Shown piece after piece: positions 28,839 to 47,655 of a DNA stretch of 64,000 nt. Both the position numbers and the translations under genes were made by a program. The DNA is taken from contig NZ_SJPE01000014.1 in NCBI RefSeq assembly GCF_004329815.1, forward strand, positions 340-64,339, given 5' to 3'. The stretch is from Flavobacterium silvisoli. GTDB taxonomy: Bacteria; Bacteroidota; Bacteroidia; Flavobacteriales; Flavobacteriaceae. Each line of letters begins with the position of its first letter. The stretch's first letter is position 1. The notes under the pieces were generated by a model. It ran no database searches and had not been told where the DNA came from. It saw only the letters and a list, made by a program, of their open reading frames with translations.

Positions 28839-29818
28839 TGACAAACATTAACACAACTGTACTTATTACGGGCGGAGCCGGATTTATAGGGTCTAATTTA
28901 TGCGAATATTTTTTAGCGAAAGGCTATAAAGTAACTTGTCTTGACAATTTTGCCACCGGACATCATCATAATATCAAACCTTTTTTATCCAATCCTCATT
29001 TTACTTTTATTGAAGGCGATATTCGAAACCCTGAGACTTGTGCCCGAGCAGTGAAAGGTATAGATTATGTGTTGCATCAGGCAGCCTTGGGTTCAGTGCC
29101 CAGATCTATTCAGGATCCGTTTACATCCAATGAAGTGAACGTTACCGGTTTTATGAATATGTTGCTTGCCGCGAGAGATGCCGGTGTAAAACGGTTTATT
29201 TATGCAGCCAGTTCTTCCACTTATGGGGATTCAGAAAAATTGCCCAAAGTAGAAGATGTAATCGGTAAACCGCTTTCTCCCTATGCTATCACTAAATACG
29301 TTAATGAGCTGTATGCTGATGTGTTCAGCAAAACCTACGGGATAGAAACTATAGGTCTTCGTTACTTCAATGTTTTCGGTAGACGTCAAGATCCTAAAGG
29401 TGCTTATGCCGCCGTAATTCCTAAATTTGTGATGCAGTTAATGCAACATCAAAGCCCAGTCATCAATGGTGACGGAAATTATTCAAGAGACTTCACTTAT
29501 ATTGACAATGTGATTCAAATGAATGAATTGGCTATGACTACGACAAATCCTGAGGCGGTCAACACGGTTTACAATACCGCGGTTGGCGACAGAACGACAC
29601 TGAATGAAATGGTAATGTATTTGAAAAAGTACTTGTCTGATTTTGACTCAGCGATAGCCAAAATACCCGTAATTTATGGTCCCAATAGAGCAGGAGATAT
29701 TCCGCACTCGTTGGCCAGTATAGAAAAAGCAAAACAATTACTTAATTATAATCCCAAATTTCCCTTTCAAGACGGTTTGAAAGAAGCGGTGAAATGGTAT
29801 TGGGAAAATCTGAAATAA
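28838..29818 (+). CDS. UDP-N-acetylglucosamine/-uronate 4-epimerase (WbpP/TviC-like)
   Basis: A 326-residue extended SDR: NAD motif [17 protein letters not shown] with the catalytic Ser, and YAITK (Tyr/Lys pair). [18 protein letters not shown] and [16 protein letters not shown] are typical of the WbpP/TviC branch, which interconverts UDP-GlcNAc/UDP-GalNAc or their uronic acids. With the WbpA/TviB-like dehydrogenase at 31263 it would give UDP-GalNAcA, as in Vi antigen synthesis. Start codon overlaps the wzc stop. The epimerase class is secure; the exact substrate is inferred. Confidence 0.85.
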
Positions 29819-29828
29819 TAAAAATAGA

Positions 29829-31223
29829 ATGAATATTACTAACATTTGTTGTATTGGTGCCGGTTATGTAGGAGGTCCGACTATGGCAGTTATCGCCGAA
29901 AAATGCCCACATATTAAAGTGACTGTGGTTGATTTAAACGAGAAAAGAATAGCAGCTTGGAATGATAAAGACATTAACAACATCCCTATTTATGAACCGG
30001 GACTGAATGAGATTGTAGCTCATGCCCGTGGGAGAAATTTATTTTTTTCTACCGATGTTGATAAAGCCATTGATGAGGCTCAATTGATATTCATATCGGT
30101 AAACACCCCAACCAAAACGTATGGAACCGGAAAAGGAATGGCGGCCGATTTGAAGCACATAGAATTGTGTGCCCGTCAGATAGCCAAAGTAGCCAAAAAT
30201 GATAAAATCATAGTAGAAAAATCAACTTTGCCCGTCAGAACAGCCGAGGCTATTAAGAGTATTTTGGACAATACCGGTAACGGAGTTCAATTCCAAATTC
30301 TATCCAACCCCGAATTTTTAGCCGAAGGAACTGCTGTTGTCGATTTGTTGAATCCGGATAGAGTATTGATTGGAGGCGAGACCACTGTTGAAGGGCAAAA
30401 AGCCATCGATGCTTTAGTAGAAGTTTACGCTAACTGGGTGCCGAAAGACCGCATTTTAAAAACTAATGTTTGGTCATCAGAATTGTCAAAATTGACTGCC
30501 AATGCTTTTCTGGCGCAAAGAGTATCATCCATCAATGCAATTTCAGAGCTGTGTGAAAAGACAGAAGCCAATGTGAATGAAGTGGCCAAAGCCATTGGAA
30601 TGGATAGTCGTATCGGGTCTAAGTTTCTAAAAGCGTCTGTAGGTTTCGGAGGTTCCTGTTTCCAAAAAGACATACTGAATTTGGTTTATATTTCCAAAGC
30701 TTTCGGACTGCATGAAGTGGCTGATTACTGGGAGCAGGTGATTATTATGAATGACCATCAAAAAAGACGTTTTTCAAAAAATATAGTACAAACACTTTAT
30801 AATACCGTATCGGGTAAGAAGATTGCCTTTTTAGGTTGGGCTTTCAAAAAAGATACTAATGATACGCGTGAATCTGCTGCTATTTATGTGGCTGATGATT
30901 TGATTAATGAACAAGCTTCTGTGGCCTTGTATGATCCTAAAGTGTCTTATCAACAGGCATTGTCTGATCTAGATTACTTGGACACAAGAACTCCGGCAGA
31001 AAACGAAAAGTACCTGATGGCCTCCGGCGATGCTTATGAAGCTTGCCAAAATGCTCACGCTATTGCTATTTTAACCGAATGGGATGAATTTAAAGCATAC
31101 GATTGGCAGAAGATTTACGATAATATGCTTAAGCCGGCTTTTGTTTTTGATGGCCGGAATTTATTAGACGCCGATAAAATGAGAGCCATAGGATTCGTTT
31201 ATCAATCCATAGGAAGCAGATAG
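29829..31223 (+). CDS. UDP-glucose 6-dehydrogenase
   Basis: A 464-residue enzyme that oxidises UDP-glucose to UDP-glucuronate with NAD+. The N-terminal motif [18 protein letters not shown] and the length are of the longer animal-like UGDH class. Catalytic Cys lies in [25 protein letters not shown] and [16 protein letters not shown] are also conserved. Product can feed the UDP-glucuronate 4-epimerase at 33681 to give UDP-GalA. It follows the WbpP-like gene by 10 bases. Confidence 0.93.
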
Positions 31224-31262
31224 GCCTCAGGGAATGGCATCAATTTTAATTTTTTAAAAAAT

Positions 31263-32540
31263 ATGAGTGTAAAAATTGCAATAATCGGACTCGGATACGT
31301 TGGTTTGCCCTTGGCAAGATTGTTTGCTACCCAATATGCAGTTGTTGGGTTTGATATCAATCAAGACAGGATAGCAGCCTTGAATTCGGGTTGCGATGCT
31401 ACACTTGAAGTAGACGAAGCCACTTTGAAAGCGGTATTGGTCGATTCGCCATCAGCGGAAAAAGGGCTTTTTTGCAGTAGCAATTTAGACGATATTAAGC
31501 AGTGTAATTATTATATAGTAACTGTTCCTACTCCGGTAGACAAAAACAATCGTCCCGATTTGACTCCGCTCTACAAGGCCAGTGAAACGGTTGGAAAAGT
31601 TTTGAAAAAAGGAGATATAGTCATCTATGAGTCTACGGTATACCCCGGTGTTACTGAGGAGGAATGCATTCCGGTTTTGGAAAAGATAAGCGGTTTGCAA
31701 TTCAATGTTGATTTTTTTGCAGGCTATTCTCCGGAGCGCATTAACCCCGGAGATAAAGAACATACCGTAGAGAAAATACTCAAAGTAACCTCTGGTTCCA
31801 CTCCCGAAATCGGTCAGAAAGTAAACGATTTATACCGATCAGTCATCACCGCCGGGACGCATTTGGCTCCTTCCATTAAAGTGGCTGAAGCTGCTAAAGT
31901 GATTGAAAATTCACAGCGCGATATCAACATTGCTTTTGTAAATGAACTGGCTAAAATTTTTAATTTATTAGAAATCGATACCCACGCTGTTTTAGAAGCT
32001 GCCGGAACGAAATGGAATTTTCTCCCGTTCAAACCCGGGCTGGTGGGCGGACACTGCATAGGTGTGGATCCTTACTATTTAGCCCAAAAAGCTCAGGAGA
32101 AGGGATATCACCCCGAAATTATTTTGGCCGGAAGACGCCTCAACGACAGTATGGGCGAATATGTGGCGGCACAAGTAGTAAAGTTGATGATTAAAAAAGG
32201 CGTAACTATTAACGGAGCAAAATTGTTGATGTTGGGTTTCACGTTTAAAGAAAATTGTCCGGATGTACGCAATACTAAAATTGTAGATGTGGTGATGGCT
32301 TTGGCTGATTACGGTATAGAAGTGACTATCTTTGACCCATGGGCCAATCCGGAAGAAGTGATGCACGAGTATCACTTAAAAATGACCAACCAGTTGCCAA
32401 GTGCCACCTACGATGCTTTGGTGCTTGGTGTAGCTCATAAAGAATTTGAAGCTCTCGATTTTGCTCAACTCAAAAAACCGAACGGTGTTTTATTTGATGT
32501 AAAAGGAATTTTAAAAGATAAGGCAGACGGTAAATTGTAA
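31263..32540 (+). CDS. UDP-HexNAc 6-dehydrogenase (WbpA/TviB-like)
   Basis: A 425-residue nucleotide-sugar dehydrogenase of the Vi polysaccharide TviB branch: [25 protein letters not shown], catalytic Cys in [19 protein letters not shown], and [13 protein letters not shown]. This branch oxidises UDP-GlcNAc (or UDP-GalNAc) to the 6-uronic acid. It is a second, distinct dehydrogenase 40 bases after the UGDH, so the locus probably makes both HexA and HexNAcA. It pairs logically with the WbpP/TviC-like epimerase. Confidence 0.9.
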
Positions 32541-32599
32541 GGAGTGGTTGTTGGTTTTGAGTTTTTTAAATAAGGAATATTTTAGTTAAATTTTTATAG

Positions 32600-33658
32600 A
32601 TGAAAAAGATATTGATTACTGGTGGAGCAGGATTTATAGGTTCTCATGTGGTGAGACGATTTGTGAATAGGTACCCAAATTATCAAATATATAATTTGGA
32701 TGCTTTGACTTATGCCGGAAATTTAGAAAACATAACTGACATCGAAAATGCACCCCATTATACTTTTGTAAAAGGAGATATAACCGATGCGGATTTTATC
32801 CATGCTTTATTCGAAAAACACCGGTTTGACGGCGTGTTGCATTTGGCAGCGGAGTCCCACGTTGACCGTTCCATTACCGATCCGTTGGCTTTTGTAAAAA
32901 CCAATGTTATCGGGACGATGAATTTGTTGAATGCTGCTAAAGCCATTTGGAAAGACAATTTCGAAGGAAAGCGTTTTTATCATATTTCTACTGACGAGGT
33001 GTATGGAAGTTTAGGAGCCACAGGCTTGTTTACTGAAACCACTCCTTACGACCCGAATTCTCCTTACTCGGCTTCAAAAGCCAGTTCTGATCATTTTGTT
33101 CGGGCTTATGGTGAGACTTACGGATTGCCTTATGTGATTACCAATTGTTCTAATAATTACGGGCCTAATCACTTTCCGGAGAAATTGATTCCCCTTTTTA
33201 TCAATAACATCATCAACAATAAACCGTTGCCGGTTTATGGCGATGGCAAATATACCCGTGACTGGCTTTTTGTAGAAGACCATGCGGTTGCTATTGATTT
33301 GGTTTTCCACGAAGGTAAAAATCATGAAACGTACAACATTGGTGGTTTCAACGAATGGCAAAACATTGATTTGGTTAAATTGCTTTGTCAGCAGATGGAT
33401 AAAAAACTGGGTCGTGCCGATGGGGAATCAGCTAAATTAATTACCTATGTAAAAGACCGTCCGGGGCATGATTTGCGTTATGCTATTGATGCTTCCAAAA
33501 TTAATAAAGAGTTGGGATGGGAACCATCGGTAACCTTTGAGCAAGGGCTGGAAAAAACCATCGATTGGTATTTGGCCAATGAGGCCTGGCTGAAAAATGT
33601 GACCTCGGGAGATTATCAGAAGTACTATGAACAACAGTATGACAAACAGCAATCCTGA
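32600..33658 (+). CDS. rfbB: dTDP-glucose 4,6-dehydratase
   Basis: A 352-residue extended [44 protein letters not shown] with the catalytic Asp-Glu pair, YSASKASSDH (Tyr/Lys), NCSNNYGPNHFPEKLIPL and YGDGKYTRDWLFVEDH. It makes dTDP-4-keto-6-deoxyglucose from dTDP-glucose. The usual partners rfbA, rfbC and rfbD are not in the window, so either they are elsewhere or the keto sugar is used differently. A RmlD-like reductase is present at 35766 but sits with pseB. Confidence 0.93.
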   Translation: MKKILITGGAGFIGSHVVRRFVNRYPNYQIYNLDALTYAGNLENITDIENAPHYTFVKGDITDADFIHALFEKHRFDGVLHLAAESHVDRSITDPLAFVKTNVIGTMNLLNAAKAIWKDNFEGKRFYHISTDEVYGSLGATGLFTETTPYDPNSPYSASKASSDHFVRAYGETYGLPYVITNCSNNYGPNHFPEKLIPLFINNIINNKPLPVYGDGKYTRDWLFVEDHAVAIDLVFHEGKNHETYNIGGFNEWQNIDLVKLLCQQMDKKLGRADGESAKLITYVKDRPGHDLRYAIDASKINKELGWEPSVTFEQGLEKTIDWYLANEAWLKNVTSGDYQKYYEQQYDKQQS

Positions 33659-33680
33659 TTGCAATTATAATTGATTTAAA

Positions 33681-34688
33681 ATGATACTATTAGTAACCGG
33701 TGCCGCCGGATTTATAGGATTTCATCTGAGCAAAAAATTGATTGCCCTAGGACATCAGGTTGTTGGTTTGGATAATATCAACGGTTACTATGATATCAAT
33801 TTAAAGATGAGTCGTTTAGAGCAGTTGGGAGTGACTGATGTTTTTGAACACAAGATTTCGAAGAGCAAAACACATCCGGATCAATTACATTTTATAAAAA
33901 TGGATTTGGAAGATCAGTTGAATCTGCCCATACTTTTTAAAGAATATTCATTTGATGCGGTATGTAATTTAGCCGCTCAGGCCGGAGTCCGATACAGCAT
34001 AGAAGATCCTATGGTGTATGTTCAGAGTAACATTGTTGGGTTCATCAATCTGTTAGAGTGTATGCGGCATAATAATGTTAAAAAGCTGGTGTATGCCAGT
34101 AGTTCCAGTGTTTACGGAAACAGTAAATCTGTTCCTTTTTCAACCGCTGACCCGGTAGACGAACCGATAAGTATTTATGCCGCGACCAAGAAATCAAATG
34201 AATTGATGGCGTACACCTATACTCATTTGTTTGATTTTCAAAGTATTGGTCTTAGGTTTTTTACCGTTTATGGTCCTTGGGGCAGACCGGATATGGCCAT
34301 GTTTTTGTTTACCAATGCAATTTTAAACGATAAACCTATTGATGTTTTCAATAATGGTGAACTTTACAGAGATTTTACCTATGTTGATGATATTGTTGAA
34401 GGAGTTGTAGCTACCCTAACCCATACCCAATATGCAAAAAAATATGCCTTATATAATATTGGCAACAACAAACCGGTTAAACTGTTGGATTTTATTGAAG
34501 CCATAGAAAAATGTATCGGTAAAAAAGCAATCAAGACCATGAAACCGATGCAGCCCGGTGATGTGGAGCGGACTTGGGCAGATGTGAGTGATTTACAAAA
34601 AGATTTTAACTACTGCCCCAACACCTCTATTGATAAAGGTATACGCGAATTTGTAGATTGGTATAAAAAGTATGCAGATTTACGATAA
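33681..34688 (+). CDS. UDP-glucuronate 4-epimerase-like SDR
   Basis: A 335-residue protein with TGAAGFIGFHLSKKLI, GLDNINGYYDINLKMSRLE, NLAAQAGVRYSIEDP, ASSSSVYGNSKSVPFS and FFTVYGPWGRPDMAMFLF. This set is the usual fingerprint of UDP-glucuronate 4-epimerase (GAE/Cap1J-like), giving UDP-galacturonate. The UDP-GlcA source would be the dehydrogenase at 29829. Gene spacing to rfbB is 22 bases. Confidence 0.88.
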   Translation: MILLVTGAAGFIGFHLSKKLIALGHQVVGLDNINGYYDINLKMSRLEQLGVTDVFEHKISKSKTHPDQLHFIKMDLEDQLNLPILFKEYSFDAVCNLAAQAGVRYSIEDPMVYVQSNIVGFINLLECMRHNNVKKLVYASSSSVYGNSKSVPFSTADPVDEPISIYAATKKSNELMAYTYTHLFDFQSIGLRFFTVYGPWGRPDMAMFLFTNAILNDKPIDVFNNGELYRDFTYVDDIVEGVVATLTHTQYAKKYALYNIGNNKPVKLLDFIEAIEKCIGKKAIKTMKPMQPGDVERTWADVSDLQKDFNYCPNTSIDKGIREFVDWYKKYADLR

Positions 34689-34750
34689 GCAATTTTTTTA
34701 ATTGGTAATAAATAAAGTAAAATAATATATAATCTTGCAATAATAGAAAA

Positions 34751-35758
34751 ATGCTAAATAATAAAACGATTCTTATAACGGGAGGAACCGGGTCACTGGG
34801 AAAGGCTTTAACCAAACACATTCTGACTCATTTCCCACAAGTGAAGAAATTAATCATCTTTTCCAGAGATGAGCAGAAACAGTTTCAAATGGCCCAGGAA
34901 TATCCTGCGGGTCAATTTCCGCAAGTTCGTTTCCTGCTTGGTGATGTCAGGGATAAAGAGCGTTTGGTAAGGGCATTCCGCGATGTGGATTATGTAATTC
35001 ATGCGGCTGCTATGAAACATGTACATTTGGCAGAGTACAATCCCGATGAGTGTATTAAAACTAACATTGGCGGTGCTGAAAATGTGATTCACGCTTCTTT
35101 GGAAACCGGAGTACAACATGTGGTAGCACTATCTACAGATAAGGCTTGTGCACCTATTAATTTATATGGAGCCACCAAACTGACTTCAGATAAATTGTTC
35201 GTAGCCGCCAACAACATCAAAGGCGCAAATCCGATTAAATTTTCTGTGGTTCGTTACGGAAATGTAATGGGTTCCAACGGCTCTGTAATTCCGTTCTTTA
35301 TTAAGAAAAGAGCAGAAGGAAAACTACCCATTACCGATCCGACGATGACCCGTTTCAATATTTCACTACAGGGCGGAGTAGACATGGTGATGCATGCTAT
35401 GGAACATGCCTGGGGAGGTGAGATTTTTATACCGAAAATACCATCATACCGCATTACAGATGTGGCCAAAGCTGTTGCGCCTGATTGTCCGATAGAAGTG
35501 GTTGGAATAAGACCGGGAGAAAAAATACACGAAGAAATGATTACTGCATCAGACTCTTTTTACACCTATGATTTGGGTAAATATTACACCATACTTCCGT
35601 CTGTGCCAAGATTTAATCTTAGTGAATACATACTTCATTTTAATGCAAAACCAGTCCCTGCCGGTTTTAACTACAACTCGGGAGACAATACCGAATGGGA
35701 AACTGTTGAAAGTATGCGAAAACTAATAAAGGAACACGTAGACCCAACATTTGAATAG
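34751..35758 (+). CDS. pseB: UDP-GlcNAc 4,6-dehydratase (inverting), PseB-like
   Basis: A 335-residue SDR with ITGGTGSLGKALTKHIL, IIFSRDEQKQFQMAQEYP, LGDVRDKERL, AAAMKHVHLAEYNPDECIKT, LSTDKACAPINLYGATKLTSD, and IGIRPGEKIHEEMI-like (GIRPGEKIHEEMI). This is a near-textbook PseB/FlaA1 pattern. The enzyme converts UDP-GlcNAc to the 4-keto-6-deoxy-L-AltNAc nucleotide, the first step to pseudaminic acid. It heads a five-gene module running to 38975. A 62-base AT-rich gap precedes it. Confidence 0.92.
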   Translation: MLNNKTILITGGTGSLGKALTKHILTHFPQVKKLIIFSRDEQKQFQMAQEYPAGQFPQVRFLLGDVRDKERLVRAFRDVDYVIHAAAMKHVHLAEYNPDECIKTNIGGAENVIHASLETGVQHVVALSTDKACAPINLYGATKLTSDKLFVAANNIKGANPIKFSVVRYGNVMGSNGSVIPFFIKKRAEGKLPITDPTMTRFNISLQGGVDMVMHAMEHAWGGEIFIPKIPSYRITDVAKAVAPDCPIEVVGIRPGEKIHEEMITASDSFYTYDLGKYYTILPSVPRFNLSEYILHFNAKPVPAGFNYNSGDNTEWETVESMRKLIKEHVDPTFE

Positions 35759-35765
35759 CACTAAC

Positions 35766-36659
35766 ATGAAGAAGAAGGTGTTGATAACGGGAATTTCAGG
35801 CATGCTGGGTAAGGCGGTGTATGCTCATTTCAAACACAATGAACCGTATGTAATACACGGTGTTTCCCGTCAGCCCGGATATGAGTTGGAAGGTGTAGTA
35901 ATGCATCATGGAGATTTGACTTCTGAAACTTTTATGGAATCATTGCAGTCACTCTCTTTTGATGCCGTCATTCATTGTTCTGCCGAAGTCAATGTTAATT
36001 TGTGTGAAACCGATAAGGCATTGGCCTTTCAATCCAATGTTAAATCAGCTGAAAATGTAGTAAAATTGCTGAATGCCAGATGTTATGTTTATGTTTCAAC
36101 TGATGCTGTTTTTGATGGACAAGCCGGAGATTATACAGAAACTTCTGCTGTGAACCCTTTGAATTATTACGCTGAAACAAAGCTATTGGGAGAAGAAGCG
36201 GTTAAAACATTTACGGATAACTACTATATACTTCGTACTAATATTTATGGGTTTAATCAACCTATGAAAAAATCTCTGTTCGAATGGGCGTATACAGAGC
36301 TGCAAGCGGGAAATACCATTAATGGTTTTGACAATATGTTTTTCAACCCAATGTATGTAGGGCAATTGGCGGCCTTTATGGCTAAATTAATTGCCTCAGA
36401 CATTCCTTATGGTACTTACAATGTCGCCGTTGATGAGAAACTCTCAAAATACGATTTCCTGATGAAAATTGCAGAAACGTTTGGTTTTCAGAATACTCAG
36501 GTGAACAAAGTTTACTTTGATCCCAAAGAATTTGTAGCTCCCAGAGCTTTAAATACTACTTTAAAAAATGATACTGTTAAATCCGTAATGAAAGACTTTG
36601 ATTTTTCTTTTCATTCGGGTTTTTCTATGTTGGAAAAAGATTTAAGAGCATTAAAATAA
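35766..36659 (+). CDS. RmlD-like SDR sugar reductase
   Basis: A 297-residue SDR starting at ATG 35766, seven bases after the pseB stop; an in-frame TTG at 35751 overlaps pseB but is less likely. Motifs: VLITGISGMLGKAVYAHF (NADPH loop), CSAEVNVNLCETD, YVSTDAVFDG with catalytic Thr/Ser position, and YYAETKLLGEE (Tyr/Lys). These are the marks of RmlD/dTDP-4-keto-rhamnose reductases, which reduce a C4 ketone. It sits exactly where PseC, the 4-aminotransferase, would be expected. The likely reaction is 4-reduction of the PseB product; this is inferred from family and position. Confidence 0.82.
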   Translation: MKKKVLITGISGMLGKAVYAHFKHNEPYVIHGVSRQPGYELEGVVMHHGDLTSETFMESLQSLSFDAVIHCSAEVNVNLCETDKALAFQSNVKSAENVVKLLNARCYVYVSTDAVFDGQAGDYTETSAVNPLNYYAETKLLGEEAVKTFTDNYYILRTNIYGFNQPMKKSLFEWAYTELQAGNTINGFDNMFFNPMYVGQLAAFMAKLIASDIPYGTYNVAVDEKLSKYDFLMKIAETFGFQNTQVNKVYFDPKEFVAPRALNTTLKNDTVKSVMKDFDFSFHSGFSMLEKDLRALK

Positions 36660-36664
36660 CACGT

Positions 36665-37732
36665 ATGAAAAAAATAAAATTTGGAAACAGAGTTATAGGA
36701 CCCGGTGAACCACTCTACTTTATTGCCGATATTGGTGCCAACCACGATGGTAGTCTTGATAAGGCTTACCGGTTGATTGAATTGGCCAAAGAGGCCGGAG
36801 CTGATGCTGCTAAATTTCAAAATTTTCAAGCGGCTAAAATTGTGAGCCGAGTGGGTTTTGAAAATTTGGGAACACAACTGTCCCACCAATCCAAATGGAA
36901 GAAGAGTGTTTATGAAGTTTATGAAGATGCCAGTATTTCACTCGATTGGACACCTTTATTGAAGAAGAAATGTGATGAAGTTGGGATTGATTTTTTTACC
37001 AGTCCGTACGATTTTCAATCGGTAGATGCGGTTGATACATATGTAGATTTATACAAAATCGGTTCGGGTGATATCACCTGGATTGAAATTATTGAGCACA
37101 TAGCAAAAAAGAATAAACCTGTCCTTATAGCTACCGGAGCTTCTGAAATGGAAGATGTAGAAAGAGCCATGACTGCTCTTGAGGCTTTGACCGACGATAT
37201 TGTATTAATGCAATGCAACACTAATTATACTTTGGATAAGGACAAGTATAAATATGTTAATTTGAATGTTTTAAAAGATTTTGCGCAACGCTATCCCAAT
37301 GCGGTTTTAGGATTGTCTGATCATACCTTAGGACATGCCACTGTATTAGGAGCGGTTGCTCTGGGAGCTGTGGTCATCGAAAAACACTTTACCGACAGCA
37401 ATGAGCACGAAGGTCCTGACCATAAGTTTGCTATGAATCCGAAGACATGGAGAGAAATGGTAGACAATGCTAACGAGGTTTATTATGCTTTAGGCGATGG
37501 TATCAAAAGAATTGAGGAGAATGAGAAAACATCTCTGATTGTACAAAGAAGATCATTACGTGCTACGGTTGATTTGCCGGTAGGAAAAATTATAGAAAAA
37601 CAAGATTTAGAAGCATTGCGACCAATCCCTTCTGATGGATTTTCACCTTACCAAATTGATGAATTAATTGGTAAAAAATTGACACAACCTCTGGGAAAGG
37701 GAGAACACATTACTAAAAATCACATACAATAA
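36665..37732 (+). CDS. NeuB-family nonulosonic acid synthase (PseI/NeuB-like)
   Basis: A 355-residue enzyme: TIM barrel (~1-280; FIADIGANHDGSLDKAYRLI, DAAKFQNF, GIDFFTSPYDFQSVDAVD, YKIGSGDITW, LGLSDHTLGH, IEKHFTDSNEHEGPDHKFAM) followed by a SAF/antifreeze-like domain (~290-355; SLIVQRRSLRATVDLPVGK, LGKGEHITKNHI). It condenses phosphoenolpyruvate with a six-carbon HexNAc to make a nine-carbon ulosonic acid. Whether the acceptor is ManNAc-like, Pse-type or another sugar is not fixed by these motifs. It starts five bases after the reductase stop. Confidence 0.92.
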   Translation: MKKIKFGNRVIGPGEPLYFIADIGANHDGSLDKAYRLIELAKEAGADAAKFQNFQAAKIVSRVGFENLGTQLSHQSKWKKSVYEVYEDASISLDWTPLLKKKCDEVGIDFFTSPYDFQSVDAVDTYVDLYKIGSGDITWIEIIEHIAKKNKPVLIATGASEMEDVERAMTALEALTDDIVLMQCNTNYTLDKDKYKYVNLNVLKDFAQRYPNAVLGLSDHTLGHATVLGAVALGAVVIEKHFTDSNEHEGPDHKFAMNPKTWREMVDNANEVYYALGDGIKRIEENEKTSLIVQRRSLRATVDLPVGKIIEKQDLEALRPIPSDGFSPYQIDELIGKKLTQPLGKGEHITKNHIQ

Positions 37733-37736
37733 AGTC

Positions 37737-38270
37737 ATGTTAAAAGGGAAATACACCGGACTGAGAGCCATAGAAAAAGAGGATTTGATTCTTTTGAGAG
37801 ATTGGAGAAATATTCCCCATTTCAGAAAAAATTTCAGAGAGCACAAAGAACTCAATCTGTTCAATCAAGAAGCTTGGTTTAACAGAACCTGCAGCAGTCC
37901 AAACGATTTTATGTTTGTTATTGTTGATTTGGAAACCAATAAACCTCTCGGCGCCTGTGGACTTTTATATACCAATTGGATTATCAGGTCGGCAGACTTT
38001 TCATTTTATATCGGACATGATGAATTGTATATGGATGACAAATATGCATCAGATGCCGCCAGCGTATTGATTGACTACGGATTTAAAGATTTGAATTTGA
38101 ATAAAATTTGGATGGAATTGTATGAATACGACGAGAAGAAACTGAATTTTTTCAAAAACAAATTCCATTTTCATGTTGATGGCATGTTAAGACAAAATGC
38201 CTTCAGCGAAGGGCGATACTGGGATTCATATGTGATTTCCTTGTTGGCTTCAGAATACTTGAAAAAATAA
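37737..38270 (+). CDS. GNAT-family acetyltransferase of the nonulosonic acid module
   Basis: A 177-residue protein beginning LKGKYTGLRAIEKEDLILLRDWRN, with the LRDWRN element often seen in sugar-modifying GNATs. The acyl-CoA region includes YIGHDELYMDDKYASDAASVLIDYGF; the C-terminal half has NKIWMELYEYDEKKLNFF. PseH, which N-acetylates the 4-amino group in pseudaminic acid synthesis, is of this family. Here no aminotransferase is visible, so it could O-acetylate, or acylate an amine made by an enzyme encoded elsewhere. It lies four bases after the neuB stop. Confidence 0.83.
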   Translation: MLKGKYTGLRAIEKEDLILLRDWRNIPHFRKNFREHKELNLFNQEAWFNRTCSSPNDFMFVIVDLETNKPLGACGLLYTNWIIRSADFSFYIGHDELYMDDKYASDAASVLIDYGFKDLNLNKIWMELYEYDEKKLNFFKNKFHFHVDGMLRQNAFSEGRYWDSYVISLLASEYLKK

Positions 38271-38279
38271 ACTACTGCA

Positions 38280-38975
38280 ATGAAAAACTTAGCCATTATT
38301 CCGGCAAGAGGCGGAAGCAAAAGAATTCCGCGTAAGAACATCAAGAACTTTTTAGGGAAGCCCATCATTGCCTATTCGATAGAAGCCGCTTTACAGTCCG
38401 GGCTTTTTGATGAAGTGATGGTGTCTACCGATGATTCTGAAATTGCAGAAGTAGCCAAGCAATACGGCGCTAAAGTTCCTTTTATGCGCAGCGAAAAAAA
38501 TGCGGATGATTATGCAACTACGCTAGACGTACTTAAAGAAGTGGAGTCAGTTTACAAGGAAAAGCTGAATCTGACTTTTGACTGCATTTGCTGTATTTAT
38601 CCGACGGCACCCCTTATTAGTATTGCCAAACTCAAGGAAGGATATGACTTATTAATCAGTCAAAAACTGGATGTTGTATATCCTATTGTTCCTTTTTCTT
38701 ATCCTTTGTTACGCGCGGTTGAGATTGATAATGGTATAACGCGTATGGTTTGGAACCAATACATGAACAGTCGATCCCAAGACCTGAAAAAATATTATCA
38801 CGATGCCGGTCAATGGTATTGGTACACCCCGGCAACCATTAAGGATTCCCTGTTTACTGATAAAACGGCCTCAATTATTTTGGACGAAACCGAAATACAG
38901 GATATTGATTCTTTGATTGATTGGCAATTGGCAGAAATGAAGTATAAGCTTTTAAATAATTCAATAAAAGAATAA
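38280..38975 (+). CDS. pseF: CMP-nonulosonic acid cytidylyltransferase (PseF-like)
   Basis: A 231-residue nucleotidyltransferase: IIPARGGSKRIPRKNIKNFLGKP (CTP-binding loop), AYSIEAALQSGLFDEVMVSTDD and YGAKVPFMRSEKNADDYATT. The pattern is closest to PseF/NeuA and CMP-activates the NeuB product. It closes the module pseB-SDR-neuB-GNAT-pseF. The next gene is the flippase, 23 bases away. Confidence 0.9.
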   Translation: MKNLAIIPARGGSKRIPRKNIKNFLGKPIIAYSIEAALQSGLFDEVMVSTDDSEIAEVAKQYGAKVPFMRSEKNADDYATTLDVLKEVESVYKEKLNLTFDCICCIYPTAPLISIAKLKEGYDLLISQKLDVVYPIVPFSYPLLRAVEIDNGITRMVWNQYMNSRSQDLKKYYHDAGQWYWYTPATIKDSLFTDKTASIILDETEIQDIDSLIDWQLAEMKYKLLNNSIKE

Positions 38976-38998
38976 CTTACGGTTATCTACAATTCGCT

Positions 38999-40453
38999 AT
39001 GAGTATTAAAAAAGCCACAGTTTCCAATGTGAAATGGTCTTTTATAGAGTCCATTAGTCTGCAGGTTGTCAGTTTCATTCTGAGTTTGGTTCTTGCTCGA
39101 TTGTTGGAGCCTTCAGCTTTTGGTGTTTTGGCTATAGTGAATGTGTTTTATTTGTTGACTACTCTTTTCATAGATTCAGGTTTGAAAGAAGCTTTGATTC
39201 AAAAAGCAGAAGTTACTGAAGTTGATTATTCTTCCGTCTTTTGGTTGAACATGGGTAAGTCTGTGTTTATTTATTCCTGTCTTTTTATTGTGGCTCCTTA
39301 CATACAGGATAGTTATGGCTACGAAAACCTTTCTTTTTATATAAGATTGCAATCGTTGACCCTTATTATTGAAGCTTTTGGATTAGTTCAAATTGTTAAG
39401 GCGATAAAGGATTTGCAAATAAAAAAAATAACAAAGGCCCGAATACCTGCGTCTTTAATCAGTCTTTTGGTAGGAATAACGATGGCTTATCACGGCTTTG
39501 GAATCGTTTCATTAATTGTTCAGCAATTGGTGAATGTATTTATTTATTCTTTGCTGTTAGTTGTTAACATCCGGTTTCGTCCATCTTTTGTTTTTGATTT
39601 TAAATTGGTACTACCTCTTTATAAATTCGGAGTACGATTGTTGGGAGTAAGTTTAATCTCCAGATTTTATGCCCAATCGTTGAATTTAATTTATGCAAAA
39701 GCCTATTCGCCGACTACTTTAGGTTTGTATTCCAAGTCAACCAGTATGCAAAATACACCTATAGATATTATAAACGGACCTTTTTTAAAGGGACTTTATC
39801 CAACCCTAGTTAAGTTACAAAATAACACAAAGCCTTTAAAGAAAATTGTTCTTCAAAACATTAAAACCGTAACCTTTTTAATTTTGATTGTCAACGGAAT
39901 TTTTTATTTTCAGGCTCATGAAATTATAAGGTTATTATTAGGGGTAAAGTGGTTTGGAATGGAACCTTATGTGAAAATTGCGGCAGTCGGGAGTACTTTT
40001 TTTCCAATAAACGGACAGTGTCAAAGTATTTTTAAAGTAAAGAATAAAGTCAATCTTTTTTTTAAAATTGAACTGATTTCTAAAATCGTCGTTTTAGTTA
40101 CGATTTTCTCTTTAATATCTTTTTACGATTTGCCTCAAATATTATGGCTTATTGTTATAATAACCATATTAACCTCTGTAACTTATTTTTATTTTACCAG
40201 CCGTATTCTTAGTTTTTCGTTTAAAAAAGAATTGTATTCTCTGCTATTCCTAATGTTAATTCATGCCTTGGCTGGGTTTGGATTGAATTTTTGTATTAAG
40301 CTTTTGTTTGCTCATATACCGGCATTATTTTCTATTATGATTTTCGGATTCATCTATTTTGTTTTAACGGCATTTCTTTTTTATGTCTTTAACAAAAAAA
40401 TCATCGGTAATCTCTTCAAGAATAATAAGTTTTTAAAGATAAAAATCAGTTAA
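38999..40453 (+). CDS. Oligosaccharide-lipid flippase (Wzx-like)
   Basis: A 484-residue protein with 12-14 hydrophobic segments, opening VKWSFIESISLQVVSFILSLVLARLLEPSAFGVLAIV, the classic start of the polysaccharide-synthesis MATE-like (Wzx/RfbX, Polysacc_synt_C) family. It would flip lipid-linked repeat units across the inner membrane. It starts a visibly more A+T-rich stretch that runs to about 44730. Confidence 0.9.
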   Translation: MSIKKATVSNVKWSFIESISLQVVSFILSLVLARLLEPSAFGVLAIVNVFYLLTTLFIDSGLKEALIQKAEVTEVDYSSVFWLNMGKSVFIYSCLFIVAPYIQDSYGYENLSFYIRLQSLTLIIEAFGLVQIVKAIKDLQIKKITKARIPASLISLLVGITMAYHGFGIVSLIVQQLVNVFIYSLLLVVNIRFRPSFVFDFKLVLPLYKFGVRLLGVSLISRFYAQSLNLIYAKAYSPTTLGLYSKSTSMQNTPIDIINGPFLKGLYPTLVKLQNNTKPLKKIVLQNIKTVTFLILIVNGIFYFQAHEIIRLLLGVKWFGMEPYVKIAAVGSTFFPINGQCQSIFKVKNKVNLFFKIELISKIVVLVTIFSLISFYDLPQILWLIVIITILTSVTYFYFTSRILSFSFKKELYSLLFLMLIHALAGFGLNFCIKLLFAHIPALFSIMIFGFIYFVLTAFLFYVFNKKIIGNLFKNNKFLKIKIS

Positions 40454-40549
40454 ATATAAGGGTTTTATTATGAGGTTTTTAGCTATTTTTAACGATATTT
40501 AAAATCAGCATCTAAATTCAAAGAGGAGACACCAAAAAAAAAATACTGT

Positions 40550-41917
40550 ATGAACATTTTGTTACCAATTGAAACCATTAACAGAGAAATTGATTTTAAA
40601 ATTGTTTTGGCAGGTTTTCTCTCCAATCAAGGGCATAAAGTATACATTGGTCAGCACGAATTTTTAATGAAATTAGTTCCGAAAATTCCACATGGTGGAC
40701 TATACATCGGTAAAAATATTTTTAATAAACGTTCTGATCTTGAGAAGGGGGAGAAGTATCACCTGTTGAAAAAATACAATTTTGACGTGATATATTTACA
40801 CGAAGAAGGGGCTGTTTTTCCGGGTAAGGAGGCAGATTGGATTCGAATTTTAAAATCACAATACAACACCGATTTTTTTGATGAGAATGATAAAATTTGT
40901 GTTTGGGGTGATTTCCAAAAAAGAATAGATGAAGCAAGAAGACCTAAATCATCAGTCATTACTACCGGACATCCACGATTTGATTTGTGCAAGGAAAAAT
41001 GGCATTCCTTGTATTTTTCAAAAGTTGAAATATTGAAAAAAGCATACGGTAACTTTGTCCTGATTAACGGTAATTATGGCATGGCAAATCACGGATTAGG
41101 TTTAGAACATGTATTTTCAGAAAAAGGAGATTACAACGTTGCTGATGAAACACAACGATTAAAACGTGTCAATTTCTTTTGTCATTCTTCCAAAAAAATG
41201 ATTGATTTGGTTTGTCTTACCCATGAATTAGCAGTAAAATTCCCAAAGTTGAATTTTGTATTCAGACCGCACCCTTCTGAAAATCATCAATATTATAAAA
41301 CTGTTTTTGTGGGAGTTAATAATATTTTTGTAAGTCATGATGGGCCGATTCTTCCTTGGATAATAGCTTCAAAAGCTATAATTCACGATGGGTGTACAAC
41401 GGCTATAGAAGCGACATTAGCCAACAAATTAGTGATTAATTTTGAAACTCATGTCAATCAGGATTATGATGTTTGGTTGCCTAATCAAATGGGGGTTAAG
41501 GCAAATGGAATTAACGAGGTAGTGTCATATTTAAACAATATGGAGGCAAATGAGAATGCGCCTGTAAGACAACTTGAAAGTCAGCTGGCAAATCAGTTGC
41601 TTTATAATTTCAATGAGGACAGTTTCGAATCGCTGTTAAAAGTCATTAATGAATTAATAACAGAAAAAGAACAACACACACAAAACAAGAATATATCGTC
41701 AGCATTCATCCAAAAAGTATACTTTACGGAAATGTTAAAAACAAAATTATATTTAATGTTAAAGCCTCATAAAAGGAAAAATATAGAATATCACAAAACA
41801 AAATTTTATGGTTTTAATGAAGGGGAATTGGCAGAAAAAATAAAAATGGTTTCTGCAATCCTCGGCAAGAAAATAAACCATAAATTTCACAATTCTAAAT
41901 TAATTGAAATAGAATGA
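40550..41917 (+). CDS. Surface carbohydrate biosynthesis protein, GT-B-like
   Basis: A 455-residue protein resembling the surface-carbohydrate-biosynthesis family often seen in nonulosonic-acid loci. Visible marks: opening LLPIETINREIDFKIVLAGFLSNQGHKVYIGQ, VWGDFQKRI, ITTGHPRFDLCKEKW, VFRPHPSENH and HDGCTTAIEATLANKLVINFE, the last two being GT-B C-domain-like phosphate/nucleotide-binding elements also found in CDP-glycerol and NeuC/PseG-type proteins. It may transfer the nonulosonic acid or a glycerol-phosphate, or act as a nucleotide-sugar hydrolase. No function is assigned. Its stop overlaps the next start (ATGA). Confidence 0.6.
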   Translation: MNILLPIETINREIDFKIVLAGFLSNQGHKVYIGQHEFLMKLVPKIPHGGLYIGKNIFNKRSDLEKGEKYHLLKKYNFDVIYLHEEGAVFPGKEADWIRILKSQYNTDFFDENDKICVWGDFQKRIDEARRPKSSVITTGHPRFDLCKEKWHSLYFSKVEILKKAYGNFVLINGNYGMANHGLGLEHVFSEKGDYNVADETQRLKRVNFFCHSSKKMIDLVCLTHELAVKFPKLNFVFRPHPSENHQYYKTVFVGVNNIFVSHDGPILPWIIASKAIIHDGCTTAIEATLANKLVINFETHVNQDYDVWLPNQMGVKANGINEVVSYLNNMEANENAPVRQLESQLANQLLYNFNEDSFESLLKVINELITEKEQHTQNKNISSAFIQKVYFTEMLKTKLYLMLKPHKRKNIEYHKTKFYGFNEGELAEKIKMVSAILGKKINHKFHNSKLIEIE

Positions 41918-42825
41918 TAACGAATCCACTGGTATCAGTAATTATTCCAACATACAAGCGCTCTGATTATTTGATGCGGGCTATAGATTCTGTTTTAAAT
42001 CAAACCTACAAGAATATTGAGATTATAGTTGTTGATGATAATGACAATAATAGTGAAAGTCGGAAATTAACACACCAAAAACTGGAAGGATTAATTAACG
42101 ATAAAAAAATAATTTATCTAAAGCATGAATCTAATAAGGGTTTGTCTGCTGCTAGAAATACAGGGTTATTAAACGCAAAAGGAGACTACATTTCCTTTTT
42201 GGATGACGATGATGAATTTCATCCGCAAAAAACAGAAGTTCAATTAAAGATTTTCAAAAACTCAGATAGTAATGTAGGGCTTGTTTATAGTGCTTTTTTA
42301 AGAATAGATGTTGAAACTCGTACAGAAACTATTGTTTATCCAAAATACAAAGGGAATGTTCGCTCGATTTTAGGGTTGAATCATATCGGCCCGCCCTCTA
42401 TGGTAATGTGTTCCAGAGAAGCTGTAGATAAGATAGGTGGATTTGATGTAGCTTTCCGCTCAAGAGAGGATATTGAGTTTTATTACAGATTGTCGGAATT
42501 TTTTACTGTTGATTACACAGATGAAGTTCTGATGAGTTATTATGTTCATTCTAACGCAATGAGTAGGATTCAATCCGATAAGTTATTTTTTTTAGAAAAA
42601 TTCATAGAAAAATACTTTGAAAATTTAAAAAATCCCACCAAAAGGTGGAGTGAGATTCAGGAACGCTTAGGTGAATTACATGCAATAAACGGAAATGCCA
42701 TAAAGGCATGGAAGGCTTTCCTTTTGTCTTATAAATACAATCCCTCCCGATTAGCAATTTTGGGTAAATTAGTGTTGAGTTTTCTAGGTAAAAAATATTA
42801 TATGAAATATAGAAATGTCCGATAA
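41914..42825 (+). CDS. Glycosyltransferase family 2
   Basis: A 303-residue GT-A fold enzyme: VSVIIPTYKRSDYLMRAIDSVLNQTYKNIEIIVVDDNDN at the start, a DXD-like FLDDDDEFHP, and an acceptor-site EDIEF motif (SREDIEFYYRL). It would add one sugar to the repeat unit on the lipid carrier. Overlaps the genes on both sides by a few bases, indicating tight co-translation. Confidence 0.9.
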   Translation: MITNPLVSVIIPTYKRSDYLMRAIDSVLNQTYKNIEIIVVDDNDNNSESRKLTHQKLEGLINDKKIIYLKHESNKGLSAARNTGLLNAKGDYISFLDDDDEFHPQKTEVQLKIFKNSDSNVGLVYSAFLRIDVETRTETIVYPKYKGNVRSILGLNHIGPPSMVMCSREAVDKIGGFDVAFRSREDIEFYYRLSEFFTVDYTDEVLMSYYVHSNAMSRIQSDKLFFLEKFIEKYFENLKNPTKRWSEIQERLGELHAINGNAIKAWKAFLLSYKYNPSRLAILGKLVLSFLGKKYYMKYRNVR

Positions 42826-43966
42826 AAAAAAGAAAATAGCTTTTTTTGGGTTACCCTTATCAGGCGGTAATTATACCCATTATTGTTATTTAAAGCATGG
42901 ATTAAAAGATTTTGAATTTTCTTTAATTGGTGTAGGAAAAATTGATATTTCACTGATATGTGACTCTAGCTTTATTCACTTGGGTAATGATTTAGATAAA
43001 AATAAAGATCAAACACACTTGGCTAAAATAGTGTTTGATTATATTGAAAATGCGCATTTTGATATCATTATTCCAATGAATTCGCCCATTGTTGTCTCTT
43101 TAATTCCTTTTCTGAATGAAAAAACCAGAATTGTACAAATTGTAAACAGTGATACACCCAGAGTATACAAATATGTTACTTCTCATATAGAATATGTTGA
43201 CCAAATCATATGCATTTCTTCAAAGCAAATGCAAGAAATAGAAAAAAGGATTCCTTTTGATTTTTTCAATTCAAATGTTTCCTTGATACCTCATGGAGTT
43301 ACTTTGGATGACAATGACATAAAATACAATGACAACGGTATTCTTTGTTTAGGTTATTTGGGCAGAATGCATCAAGGTCATAAAAATATTTTTTTGCTTC
43401 CTGAAATTTTAAAAAAGTTGTCTATTCCATATGAATTTGAACTTGTTGGAGGAGGAGAAGATAAAGCACTTCTACTTGAAAAGTTGAATAACGAAAATAT
43501 TATTTATAAAGACCACGGAAATTTAGATAAGGAAGACATAAATAAGGCTGTGAAAGATTGGGATATTCAGTTATTTCCGTCTACAGTTGAGGGATTTGGA
43601 TTAACCATTATTGAATGTATGAATCAAGGAGTAGTACCTGTGGCCAACCGGTTAAAAGGAGTGACGGATTACATTATTACGAATCAGATTGACGGGTACC
43701 TAATTGATAATAATGATGTTACTTTGTATGTTGACAGAATAATGTTATTACATTCTGATAGAAATCTCTTGAAAGCATTGAAGCATGGTGCTAAAAATAC
43801 CGTTAAAAACAGATTTGATTTGGCAACTGTTTTAAATCAGTACAACACTGTTTTCACCGGCGTACTCCAAAAAACGAACGATAAATTGCCTTTGGATTTT
43901 TCAGCTTGGAAACCTTATGTAGAGTATAAACCAAGTCTGCTCAAACGAATTTTAAATAAATTTTAG
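42815..43966 (+). CDS. Glycosyltransferase family 4
   Basis: A 383-residue GT-B enzyme. The C-terminal domain has GYLGRMHQGHKNIFLLPEIL, VGGGEDK, and the E-x7-E motif in STVEGFGLTIIECMNQGVVPVA. The N-terminal domain is less conserved, with GNYTHYCYLKHGL near the start. It overlaps the GT2 stop by 11 bases. Confidence 0.87.
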   Translation: MSDKKKKIAFFGLPLSGGNYTHYCYLKHGLKDFEFSLIGVGKIDISLICDSSFIHLGNDLDKNKDQTHLAKIVFDYIENAHFDIIIPMNSPIVVSLIPFLNEKTRIVQIVNSDTPRVYKYVTSHIEYVDQIICISSKQMQEIEKRIPFDFFNSNVSLIPHGVTLDDNDIKYNDNGILCLGYLGRMHQGHKNIFLLPEILKKLSIPYEFELVGGGEDKALLLEKLNNENIIYKDHGNLDKEDINKAVKDWDIQLFPSTVEGFGLTIIECMNQGVVPVANRLKGVTDYIITNQIDGYLIDNNDVTLYVDRIMLLHSDRNLLKALKHGAKNTVKNRFDLATVLNQYNTVFTGVLQKTNDKLPLDFSAWKPYVEYKPSLLKRILNKF

Positions 43967-43983
43967 TAGTATAACCAAATGCT

Positions 43984-44013
43984 GACTCGTTTAACGGAAA
44001 TTTACTACGAGTC
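43984..44013 (+). terminator. Possible weak hairpin between glycosyltransferase and methyltransferase genes
   Basis: GACTCGT (43984-43990) is complementary to ACGAGTC (44007-44013) with a 16-base loop, followed by TTGTGTTTT. It may attenuate transcription or be a processing site; the U tract is imperfect. Confidence 0.3.
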
Positions 44014-44036
44014 TTGTGTTTTAAACCAAAAATGAA

Positions 44037-44729
44037 ATGAAAAACCAGTTAAAAAAAATTATCCCTTCATGGTTCATAAATTGGAGAAGAAAAAAACTCT
44101 CTAAATTCAGAGACATGAGTCCGCAAGAAACGTTCCGACATATTTATGAAACTAATCATTGGAACAGCAAAGAAAGTATTTCCGGTGGCGGTTCTGAAAT
44201 CAATCAAACTATAACATTGATAAAAGATTTGGAAGAAATAATATCTGACAAAAAAATCACTAGTTTATTAGATGTTCCTTGCGGTGACTTTAATTGGATG
44301 AAAGAAGTTAATATGCCTTCAACCCAGTACATCGGTGGAGACATAGTAGAAGATTTGATTAAAAGAAATAGTGAGAATTTTAAAGATAGAACCAATGTAA
44401 CGTTTAAAGTTGTTGATTTAATTAAAGATCCATTACCTCAGAGTGATCTTATTTTCGTGAGAGATTGTTTAGTGCATCTGTCATACGATAATATTTTTTC
44501 AGCTATACAAAATATTAAATCTTCAGGCTGTAAATACTTAATGACTACTACTTTTACAGAGTGTGATAAAAATACAGATATAGTCACTGGAAATTGGCGG
44601 AAAATAAATTTGGAAAAAAAACCATTCAACTTTCCAAAACCGCTTTTAATCATTAATGAAAATTGTACCGAAGGAAATGGACTGAACAAAGATAAATCGA
44701 TGGGAATTTGGGAGATAAGTGCCCTTTAA
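44037..44729 (+). CDS. Class I SAM-dependent methyltransferase
   Basis: A 230-residue protein with motif I SLLDVPCGDFNWMKEV (glycine-rich loop in the variant PCGD form), motif II-like YIGGDIVEDLI and a DLIFVRDCLVHLSYDNI post-motif. It would methylate a sugar hydroxyl or carboxyl of the glycan, inferred from locus position. A 70-base gap separates it from the gene upstream. Confidence 0.78.
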   Translation: MKNQLKKIIPSWFINWRRKKLSKFRDMSPQETFRHIYETNHWNSKESISGGGSEINQTITLIKDLEEIISDKKITSLLDVPCGDFNWMKEVNMPSTQYIGGDIVEDLIKRNSENFKDRTNVTFKVVDLIKDPLPQSDLIFVRDCLVHLSYDNIFSAIQNIKSSGCKYLMTTTFTECDKNTDIVTGNWRKINLEKKPFNFPKPLLIINENCTEGNGLNKDKSMGIWEISAL

Positions 44730-44757
44730 CTATTTGAAAAATTAAATTGGAGCAAGG

Positions 44758-46515: not shown

Positions 46516-47606
46516 TAGTGTTTTTTCTTCCGGATCTCAGAGCAGGCGGTGCTGAGCGGGTAATGCTTAATTTGTTGGTGCGTTACCACAGCCTACATCC
46601 TGATGAAGCATTGGCTATGTTGTTATTTAGAAAAGAAGGACCGTTGTTACAGGAGATTCCGGATACCATTCCTGTTTTTGAACTCCACACCAAAGGCGCC
46701 ACTAAATCGGTTGTTTCTTTCATCCGTTTCTGTCGTGAAAAACAACCTAAAATTGTATTTGGCAGTTTAGGAGCGAGTTTGACGACTAGTTTGGCAAAGC
46801 CTTTTTTGCCTAAAAGAACAGTTATAATCAATAGAATAGGAAATACCATTGGGGCTGAGAAACTTTTGTTTACTAATGCCCTCAAACGCAGTTTGTACAT
46901 TTGGGCCAATAAAATAATAGCCAAAAAATCTGATCATGTCATTTTTCAGTGTCATTATATGGCTGAAGATTATATCAGAGAGACCGGTGTGCAACCGGTT
47001 TCTTCATCGGTTATTTACAACCCTGTTAAGATAGCTCACATACAAAAATTAGCACTGCAACCGGTCGATAAACAGTATGCTTTTGTAGCCGTTGGGCGAC
47101 TAAATACTCAAAAAGATTACCCGACACTCATAAGGGCTTGTGAACTGCTCATGAAGCGCGGTTGTGTTTTTACTCTTGCGATTTTGGGACAAGGCAATCT
47201 TAAAAAAGAGCTTGAGCACCAGATACAAGAATGTGGTCTGGAAAATCATGTTTTCCTCTTGGGGCATCAATCCAATCCTTATCACTATATACAACAGTCG
47301 TCTTATTTGGTTTCTTCGTCGCTGTATGAAGGTTTCTCGAATGTAATCATAGAAGCATTTTGTTTGGGAAAACCGGTTATTGCCACAGATTGTCCGGGAG
47401 GCAACGCTGAGGTTATTCAACACGGCCATAACGGCTGGCTTTGCCAATTCCAAAATCCGGAAGCTTTAGCGGAGACTTTGTATAATGGATTGCAACAAAA
47501 TGTTCAGATGACCGCAGCGCAAATAGCCCAATATGGAGCCGAACGGTTTTCGGATGATATTATCTTTGGTAGCTATGAAGTCATAATCCGACGTTATTTG
47601 TCCTAG
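46512..47606 (+). CDS. Glycosyltransferase family 4
   Basis: A 364-residue GT-B enzyme opening IVFFLPDLRAGGAERVMLNL, the usual GGAER start of the family. The C-terminal part has FVAVGRLNTQKDYPTLIRA, ILGQGNLKKEL and the E-x7-E motif SSLYEGFSNVIIEAFCLGKPVIATDCPGG. Sugar specificity is unknown. It is translationally coupled to the AsnB-like gene. Confidence 0.9.
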   Translation: MIVFFLPDLRAGGAERVMLNLLVRYHSLHPDEALAMLLFRKEGPLLQEIPDTIPVFELHTKGATKSVVSFIRFCREKQPKIVFGSLGASLTTSLAKPFLPKRTVIINRIGNTIGAEKLLFTNALKRSLYIWANKIIAKKSDHVIFQCHYMAEDYIRETGVQPVSSSVIYNPVKIAHIQKLALQPVDKQYAFVAVGRLNTQKDYPTLIRACELLMKRGCVFTLAILGQGNLKKELEHQIQECGLENHVFLLGHQSNPYHYIQQSSYLVSSSLYEGFSNVIIEAFCLGKPVIATDCPGGNAEVIQHGHNGWLCQFQNPEALAETLYNGLQQNVQMTAAQIAQYGAERFSDDIIFGSYEVIIRRYLS

Positions 47607-47655
47607 AAAATGACTAAGTTTACTGCCAAACTCTGATGACGCCCAACAAATAAGC

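Follow-up and report, generated by a model that had tools for sequence, protein, structure and literature searches.

Which sugar is made by a nonulosonic acid gene cassette that carries a reductase where an aminotransferase is expected? The question is raised by a stretch of 64,000 nucleotides from Flavobacterium silvisoli (NCBI RefSeq assembly GCF_004329815.1, contig NZ_SJPE01000014.1, positions 340 to 64,339), here called the window, in whose numbering coordinates are given unless a locus label precedes them. At 34751-38975, on the + strand, it encodes in order a PseB dehydratase, an RmlD-like short-chain dehydrogenase/reductase (SDR), a NeuB-family synthase, a PseH-like GNAT acetyltransferase and the cytidylyltransferase PseF. 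Gene-content surveys sort such clusters into neuraminic (Neu), legionaminic (Leg) and pseudaminic (Pse) acid types. The cassette belongs to none of these types and, as it includes PseB and PseF, could be misread as a broken Pse cluster. With a probability of roughly 0.6, the product of the five genes is a sialic-acid-like surface sugar of the fusaminic acid kind: a nonulosonic acid that is 9-deoxy, bears a hydroxyl group at C7 and is activated with CMP.

A reductase in the PseC position

The first gene, pseB (34751..35758), encodes a UDP-GlcNAc 4,6-dehydratase that belongs by family to the 5-inverting kind; it scores 507 bits on the NCBIfam PseB model (cut-off 407.75), and its closest PDB match is 2gn4, a UDP-GlcNAc C6 dehydratase. 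The RmlD-like SDR (35766..36659; PF04321, 138 bits), the proposed 4-ketone reductase, follows in the PseC position. The nonulosonic acid synthase (36665..37732; PF03102, with the SAF domain PF08666) belongs to a clade of its own within the NeuB family and falls below the cut-offs of both the NCBIfam NeuB (NeuB/NnaB) model, at 278 bits against 400, and the PseI model, at 238 against 340. The putative GNAT (37737..38270) reaches 57 bits on NCBIfam PseH, where the cut-off is 93, while the CMP-nonulosonic acid cytidylyltransferase gene pseF (38280..38975) scores 295 bits on NCBIfam PseF, above the cut-off of 205.7. The intergenic gaps are 7, 5, 4 and 9 bases, the first being measured from the SDR ATG; an alternative TTG start at 35751 would give the SDR an 8-base overlap with PseB. 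The gene order and the gaps of 4 to 9 bases given by the first-pass annotation of the window are borne out by these coordinates.

Genome-wide search for the missing enzymes

Six-frame searches covered the whole genome (2,894,048 bases in 39 contigs, 99.99% complete). PseG was absent genome-wide at its cut-off of 153.55, the sole match, at 17 bits, lying on a different contig from the window. The DegT family gave nine matches, four of them full-length, and class-III aminotransferases gave six, all on other contigs; the window's contig yielded no six-frame match to DegT, PseG or class-III aminotransferases. All four full-length DegT proteins fell below the PseC cut-off of 423.5, the best at 226 bits, and PseC itself as a query against the genome found nothing at E 1e-80. 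As a positive control, two Pse clusters from the same family, L061 and L063, contained PseB, PseC and PseG above the cut-offs, and L063 also PseF and PseI; the window PseB is 72 and 77% identical to their respective PseB proteins. The early proposal that an SDR occupies the PseC place, with PseC and PseG missing, thus agrees with the genome at these cut-offs.

The picture is more mixed for LegC. One of the four full-length DegT proteins passes WecE-type models and another is LegC-like, at 383 bits just under the cut-off of 420. The latter is encoded about 15 kb from a separate neuB-neuC-neuA set on contig C37, forming with it a second nonulosonic acid locus (L021:10030-12886 and L013:9204-10953). 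Its NeuC scores 392 bits, above the cut-off of 236, and its NeuB 283 bits, under the cut-off of 400. PseC and PseG are thus not found at their cut-offs, but the LegC-like gene and the neuBCA set are present on C37, outside the DNA on which the first-pass annotation was based. On the window's contig, no LegC with a LegG/NeuC-type hydrolysing epimerase was found linked to the window synthase. The C37 locus also includes a sugar O/N-acyltransferase-like gene near the LegC-like gene, PglD-like by reading.

Conservation of the gene set

A scan of species genomes returned at least 501 relatives of the window NeuB, of which the best 80 (55-84% identity) were used. The set of 85 loci comprises 78 of these 80 (L118 and L128 were left out, having no NeuB frame among their open reading frames, ORFs) plus nine others, less two duplicates; 57 loci are well flanked, with at least five ORFs on each side. 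The duplicates (L053 = L115, L070 = L098) were dropped from the 85 and are still present in the 87-row residue and context tallies. Locus L077, with a NeuB of 41% identity and no SDR upstream, was placed among the comparison NeuBs.

An SDR lies immediately upstream of NeuB in 55 of the 57 well-flanked loci, and such an SDR was found at none of the ten comparison NeuB loci of the family. PseB is present within six genes in 49/57 and a GNAT follows NeuB immediately in 44/57. PseF lies within six genes in 25 of the 57, an SpsF-type transferase in 29, any aminotransferase in 27 and an aldo/keto reductase in 25; PseF and SpsF coincide in a single locus, and the window is of the PseF type. No aminotransferase lies within six genes in 21 of the 25 PseF loci, whereas one is present in 23 of the 32 others (Fisher p = 4e-5, the loci not being independent). 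The survey for PseB-SDR-NeuB adjacency lacking PseC, suggested when the cassette was first noticed, found it repeatedly. Where PseF is present and SpsF and aminotransferase are not, a GNAT directly follows NeuB in 29/35 loci (before removal of duplicates), so that the GNAT does not depend on an aminotransferase. The exact window order recurs in 12/85 loci and the order PseB-PseF-SDR-NeuB-GNAT in 9/85. As the same gene set is found in other genomes, the window arrangement is not a product of chance, and chance or mis-annotation was rejected as an explanation.

Several variants were seen among these loci. A recurring module of aldo/keto reductase, SpsF and aminotransferase (DegT or glutamate-semialdehyde-type) replaces PseF in L087, L096, L100, L104, L111, L113, L126 and others. 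In L072 (5297-7069) a 590-residue protein with a weakly NeuB-like half and a cytidylyltransferase-like half lies between PseB and the SDR. A family of about 215 residues, by reading of its start a small family-2 glycosyltransferase, follows NeuB in 11 loci that have no GNAT (L127, L133, L135, L141, L144, L146, L155, L156 and others).

With the window NeuB as query, and its own genome included in the counts, a NeuB of at least 50% identity was found in 3/299 genomes of the family, 5/395 of the order and 2/395 of a phylum sample, which held one more at 42%. According to record titles and tree labels, carriers belong to Bacteroidota, Bacillota, Pseudomonadota, Acidobacteriota, Chloroflexota, Omnitrophota, Ignavibacteriota, Bdellovibrionota, Deferribacterota, Fusobacteriaceae, Gemmatimonadaceae and several candidate phyla; single assignments may err, because many carriers are metagenome bins. 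NeuB matches occurred in 101 plasmid records, and among the 15 listed one reached 55% (Maritalea), the others at most 36%. Two phage records matched, at 27 and 30% identity, and a search of viral contigs with the SDR gave ten pattern matches and no true relative.

Synthase and reductase clades

In a tree of 62 rows, the 44 cassette NeuBs included (of 87) form one side of a branch with support 100/99, a result favoured by the choice of cassette NeuBs by similarity. They also differ in sequence at particular positions: D22 is Asp in 87/87 cassette NeuBs and Glu in 12/12 comparison rows, and D136 is Asp in 87/87 and Glu in 10/12, while N185, T189 and W139 distinguish the two groups as well. D22 and N185 each lay in a scan pattern, which favours those letters; nine NeuBs collected without patterns all have both. 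We take D22 to correspond to a catalytic Glu of NeuB.

The predicted structure of the window SDR (predicted local distance difference test score, pLDDT, 96.8) has RmlD structures in its first seven match places. The glycines G9-G12-G15 and residues S111, Y135 and K139 are invariant in 39/39 aligned cassette SDRs. In a tree that included 37 of 78 cassette SDRs, these branch apart (100/100) from ten other RmlD-like proteins, taken as rhamnose-pathway RmlD by their neighbours or by similarity. The possibility that the window SDR is an ordinary RmlD was rejected, as neither this tree nor the score on NCBIfam rmlD (133 bits, cut-off 224) supports it.

Proposed pathway

The product of PseB is a 4-ketone of the L configuration. 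By family, the window enzyme would convert UDP-GlcNAc to UDP-2-acetamido-2,6-dideoxy-L-arabino-hexos-4-ulose. The SDR, using NAD(P)H, would then reduce the 4-ketone of this compound where PseC would aminate it, the simplest product being UDP-2-acetamido-2,6-dideoxy-L-altrose. RmlD itself acts as a 4-ketone reductase on a 6-deoxy sugar of L configuration, and the rank of RmlD structures among the SDR matches thus argues for a 4-reductase. A hydrolase, usually encoded outside the cassette and not identified in the F. silvisoli genome, would next release the sugar. The synthase, judged by its family, would condense the presumed substrate with phosphoenolpyruvate. O-acetylation, of the product or of a precursor, would probably be the task of the GNAT, and PseF, again by family, would form the CMP-sugar, to be used in the surface glycan that the surrounding locus specifies. 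At roughly half of the related loci PseF is replaced by an SpsF-type transferase, mostly together with an aminotransferase and an aldo/keto reductase. With C4 reduced rather than aminated before condensation, the resulting nonulosonic acid would be 9-deoxy and hydroxylated at C7. This chemistry had been put forward in the first-pass annotation, and it is the best reading of the genes.

The hydrolase was sought in 25 carrier genomes, namely that of the window and 24 picked from the 80 loci, completeness being known for one of the 25. Curated cut-offs were exceeded by PseC in one, by PseG in two and by NeuC in six. Weak matches to the PseG model (E 0.001 or better) occurred in 13/25, the best sub-cut-off score being 121 bits. 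A PseG homologue lies directly after NeuB in L132 and L151, at 147 and 148.5 bits just below the cut-off, which fits a route via a UDP-sugar that needs cleavage; L079 has one six genes on, at 183 bits. The C37 NeuC might in principle accept additional substrates. In Bacillus subtilis an spsG mutant, according to the portion of PMC7439481 available, has strongly reduced yet detectable Leg on the spore surface and no significant Leg in mother cells.

In L132 (10046-12414) and L151 (10070-12421), genes for PseG-like, formyltransferase-like and LmbE/BshB-like deacetylase proteins stand in a row after NeuB; the family scan covered all three L132 proteins and the first L151 protein only. The last two could perhaps swap an N-acetyl for an N-formyl group.

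Fusaminic acid and Fusobacteriaceae

In 2017 Vinogradov et al. reportedly found fusaminic acid in the O-antigen of Fusobacterium nucleatum ATCC 25586. The literature naming the sugar gave no gene assignment for it in the sections available, and literature searches returned no title on its biosynthesis. According to the accessible text of PMC9912281, it differs from Pse only in the stereochemistry of C4 and in having a hydroxyl for the amine at C7. The ATCC 25586 O-chain is described, in the part of PMC13014188 available, as containing N-acetylquinovosamine (QuiNAc), 2-acetamido-2,6-dideoxy-L-altrose and 5-acetimidoyl fusaminic acid, with the configuration tentative. The altrose is the product expected from PseB and a 4-reductase, which speaks for the proposed pathway.

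A Fusobacteriaceae genome, G1057, encodes PseB, SpsF, SDR, NeuB (63% identity) and GNAT in order, followed by a WbuX N-acetyl-sugar amidotransferase. The latter is split over two frames (L187:10238-11361) scoring 254 and 101 bits against a cut-off of 203, and the SDR and GNAT frames are also short, perhaps through sequencing error. The presence of an amidotransferase beside this cassette fits the acetimidoyl group of fusaminic acid, and a fusaminic acid locus, to judge from the genes, should hold a set of this type. No WbuX relative was found by BLAST with one WbuX piece among ORFs of at least 110 residues at window positions 28001-48000, so the window product would retain its N-acetyl group; elsewhere in the locus set there are two relatives, each nine genes away. 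The cassette may thus explain the origin of fusaminic acid.

Alternative readings

The SDR could act after condensation, with NeuB taking the 4-keto-6-deoxy-HexNAc and the SDR then reducing the nonulosonic acid, free or bound to CMP, at its 7-ketone. Changes after CMP activation have been proposed for acinetaminic and 8-epi-acinetaminic acid, as stated in the text available of PMC5595891. Identical genes would be required, and the SDR and NeuB form the tightest pair in the set (55/57). It is generally known, however, that RmlD-type enzymes reduce nucleotide-bound 4-ketoses, and with RmlD structures ranking first for the window SDR this order of events seems unlikely. To much the same degree it is doubtful that the output of PseB and the SDR, UDP-6-deoxy-L-AltNAc or an epimer, goes into the glycan directly and that NeuB works on a different sugar, for example N-acetylmannosamine supplied by the C37 NeuC. 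The coexistence of altrose and a nonulosonic acid in the ATCC 25586 O-chain (PMC13014188, in the part available) would suit two separate products, and the F. silvisoli genome does encode a NeuC above the cut-off. Nevertheless, such a NeuC is present in only 6/25 carriers, the C37 locus comes with a NeuB and a CMP-transferase of its own, the window NeuB scores below the NeuB/NnaB cut-off, and the SDR-NeuB pairing is too tight for enzymes of unconnected routes.

Least probable, if only slightly so, is that the cassette works with an aminotransferase and a hydrolase encoded elsewhere to yield an ordinary 7-amino sugar of the Pse or Leg type. The four full-length DegT proteins, one of them LegC-like, could supply the former; PseF and a PseH-like GNAT are at hand, and nearly half of the well-flanked loci (27/57) have an aminotransferase within six genes. 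Against this, the best DegT falls short of the PseC cut-off, PseG was not found in the genome, PseC exceeds its cut-off in 1/25 carriers and most PseF loci (21/25) are free of a nearby aminotransferase; the SDR, moreover, would be left without a role.

Reduction of the UDP-sugar at C4 before condensation is therefore preferred, and several points weigh against it. One concerns the hydrolase: neither PseG nor NeuC is above cut-off in 19/25 carriers, and 3/85 loci, the window not among them, have a PseG homologue no more than six genes away. An aminotransferase does lie near the cassette in the 27 loci just mentioned, and in the two well-flanked loci without the SDR (L083 and L089) a dissimilar gene takes its place. 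Cassette SDRs are 22-59% identical to that of the window, and with such diversity they may not all share one substrate. Pdeg, 46% identical to PseB, leaves C5 uninverted (PMC4514872, in the text available), so that assignment to the PseB family is not proof of inversion. In Fusobacteriaceae as a family, the producer ATCC 25586 not being singled out, the clade is present in 2/61 genomes and any PF03102 protein in 8/61. Finally, what the analysis shows is gene content, its conservation, clade structure and the absence of PseC and PseG at their cut-offs in this genome; each chemical step, which substrates the SDR and NeuB take, what the GNAT acetylates and whether the product is fusaminic acid are inferred from these.

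The broader proposal is made more tentatively, at rather less than even odds: that members of at least ten phyla share an additional nonulosonic acid pathway, distinct from Neu, Leg and Pse, in which a UDP-sugar reductase takes the place of the aminotransferase and the sugars formed are of the 7-hydroxy (fusaminic) type. A linked UDP-sugar hydrolase would mostly be lacking, and the synthases would form a clade with a distinctive active-site signature. The first-pass annotation had suggested a pathway outside the described types. The gene set indeed fits none of them, whereas the class of 7-hydroxy 9-deoxy products is already represented by fusaminic acid; since that sugar has been described chemically, what is new is the genes and how widely they occur. 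If the proposal is true, a sugar known from few strains becomes the product of a widespread pathway that is recognizable by its SDR-NeuB pair, and its origin in the lipopolysaccharide of F. nucleatum becomes directly testable. The usually unlinked hydrolase poses a second concrete question.

Surroundings of the cassette

The cassette sits inside a locus for surface polysaccharide, among genes that resemble those of flippases and glycosyltransferases. Immediately downstream and outside the cassette, also on the + strand, lies a gene for a Wzx-type flippase (38999..40453), which matches two models below their cut-offs, at 180 of 720 bits for an O-glycosylation flippase and 169 of 273 for a MOP flippase. 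It is followed on the same strand by a gene for a glycosyltransferase-like surface carbohydrate biosynthesis protein (40550..41917; TIGR04396, 283 bits, cut-off 125), a possible transferase. Further along the window, at 53520-59051, is encoded a protein of 1843 residues with several near-copies of the repeat SITANNGSKTYGQTY... and a C-terminal stretch which presumably resembles a type IX sorting domain.

Comparison with known systems

The Pse pathway (PseB-C-H-G-I-F) shares with the cassette PseB, PseF, a PseH-like GNAT and a NeuB-family synthase. It differs in that the genome of the window has no PseC or PseG at the cut-offs and the cassette has an SDR instead, and in that the window synthase, under the PseI cut-off, belongs to a separate clade. 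RmlD, the dTDP-4-dehydrorhamnose reductase, has the fold and SDR motifs of the window SDR; the latter is set apart by its score below the equivalog cut-off, its separate branch (100/100) and its partner gene, NeuB.

The Shewanella sfm flagellin genes were considered and set aside, as the operon there, in the part of PMC3765264 available, is a different gene set. A proven pairing of dehydratase and SDR 4-reductase is that of Pdeg and Preq in Bacillus cereus, which make UDP-QuiNAc (PMC4514872, in the text available here and below). As proposed for the window, a UDP-GlcNAc 4,6-dehydratase acts first and an NADPH-dependent 4-reductase, encoded by the next gene, second; in contrast, Pdeg retains the D configuration and the route includes no nonulosonic acid synthase (PMC4514872). 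Fusaminic acid differs from the predicted product of the window, where no WbuX relative was found at 28001-48000, in carrying a 5-acetimidoyl group. It is nonetheless 9-deoxy and hydroxylated at C7, as the window product is predicted to be.

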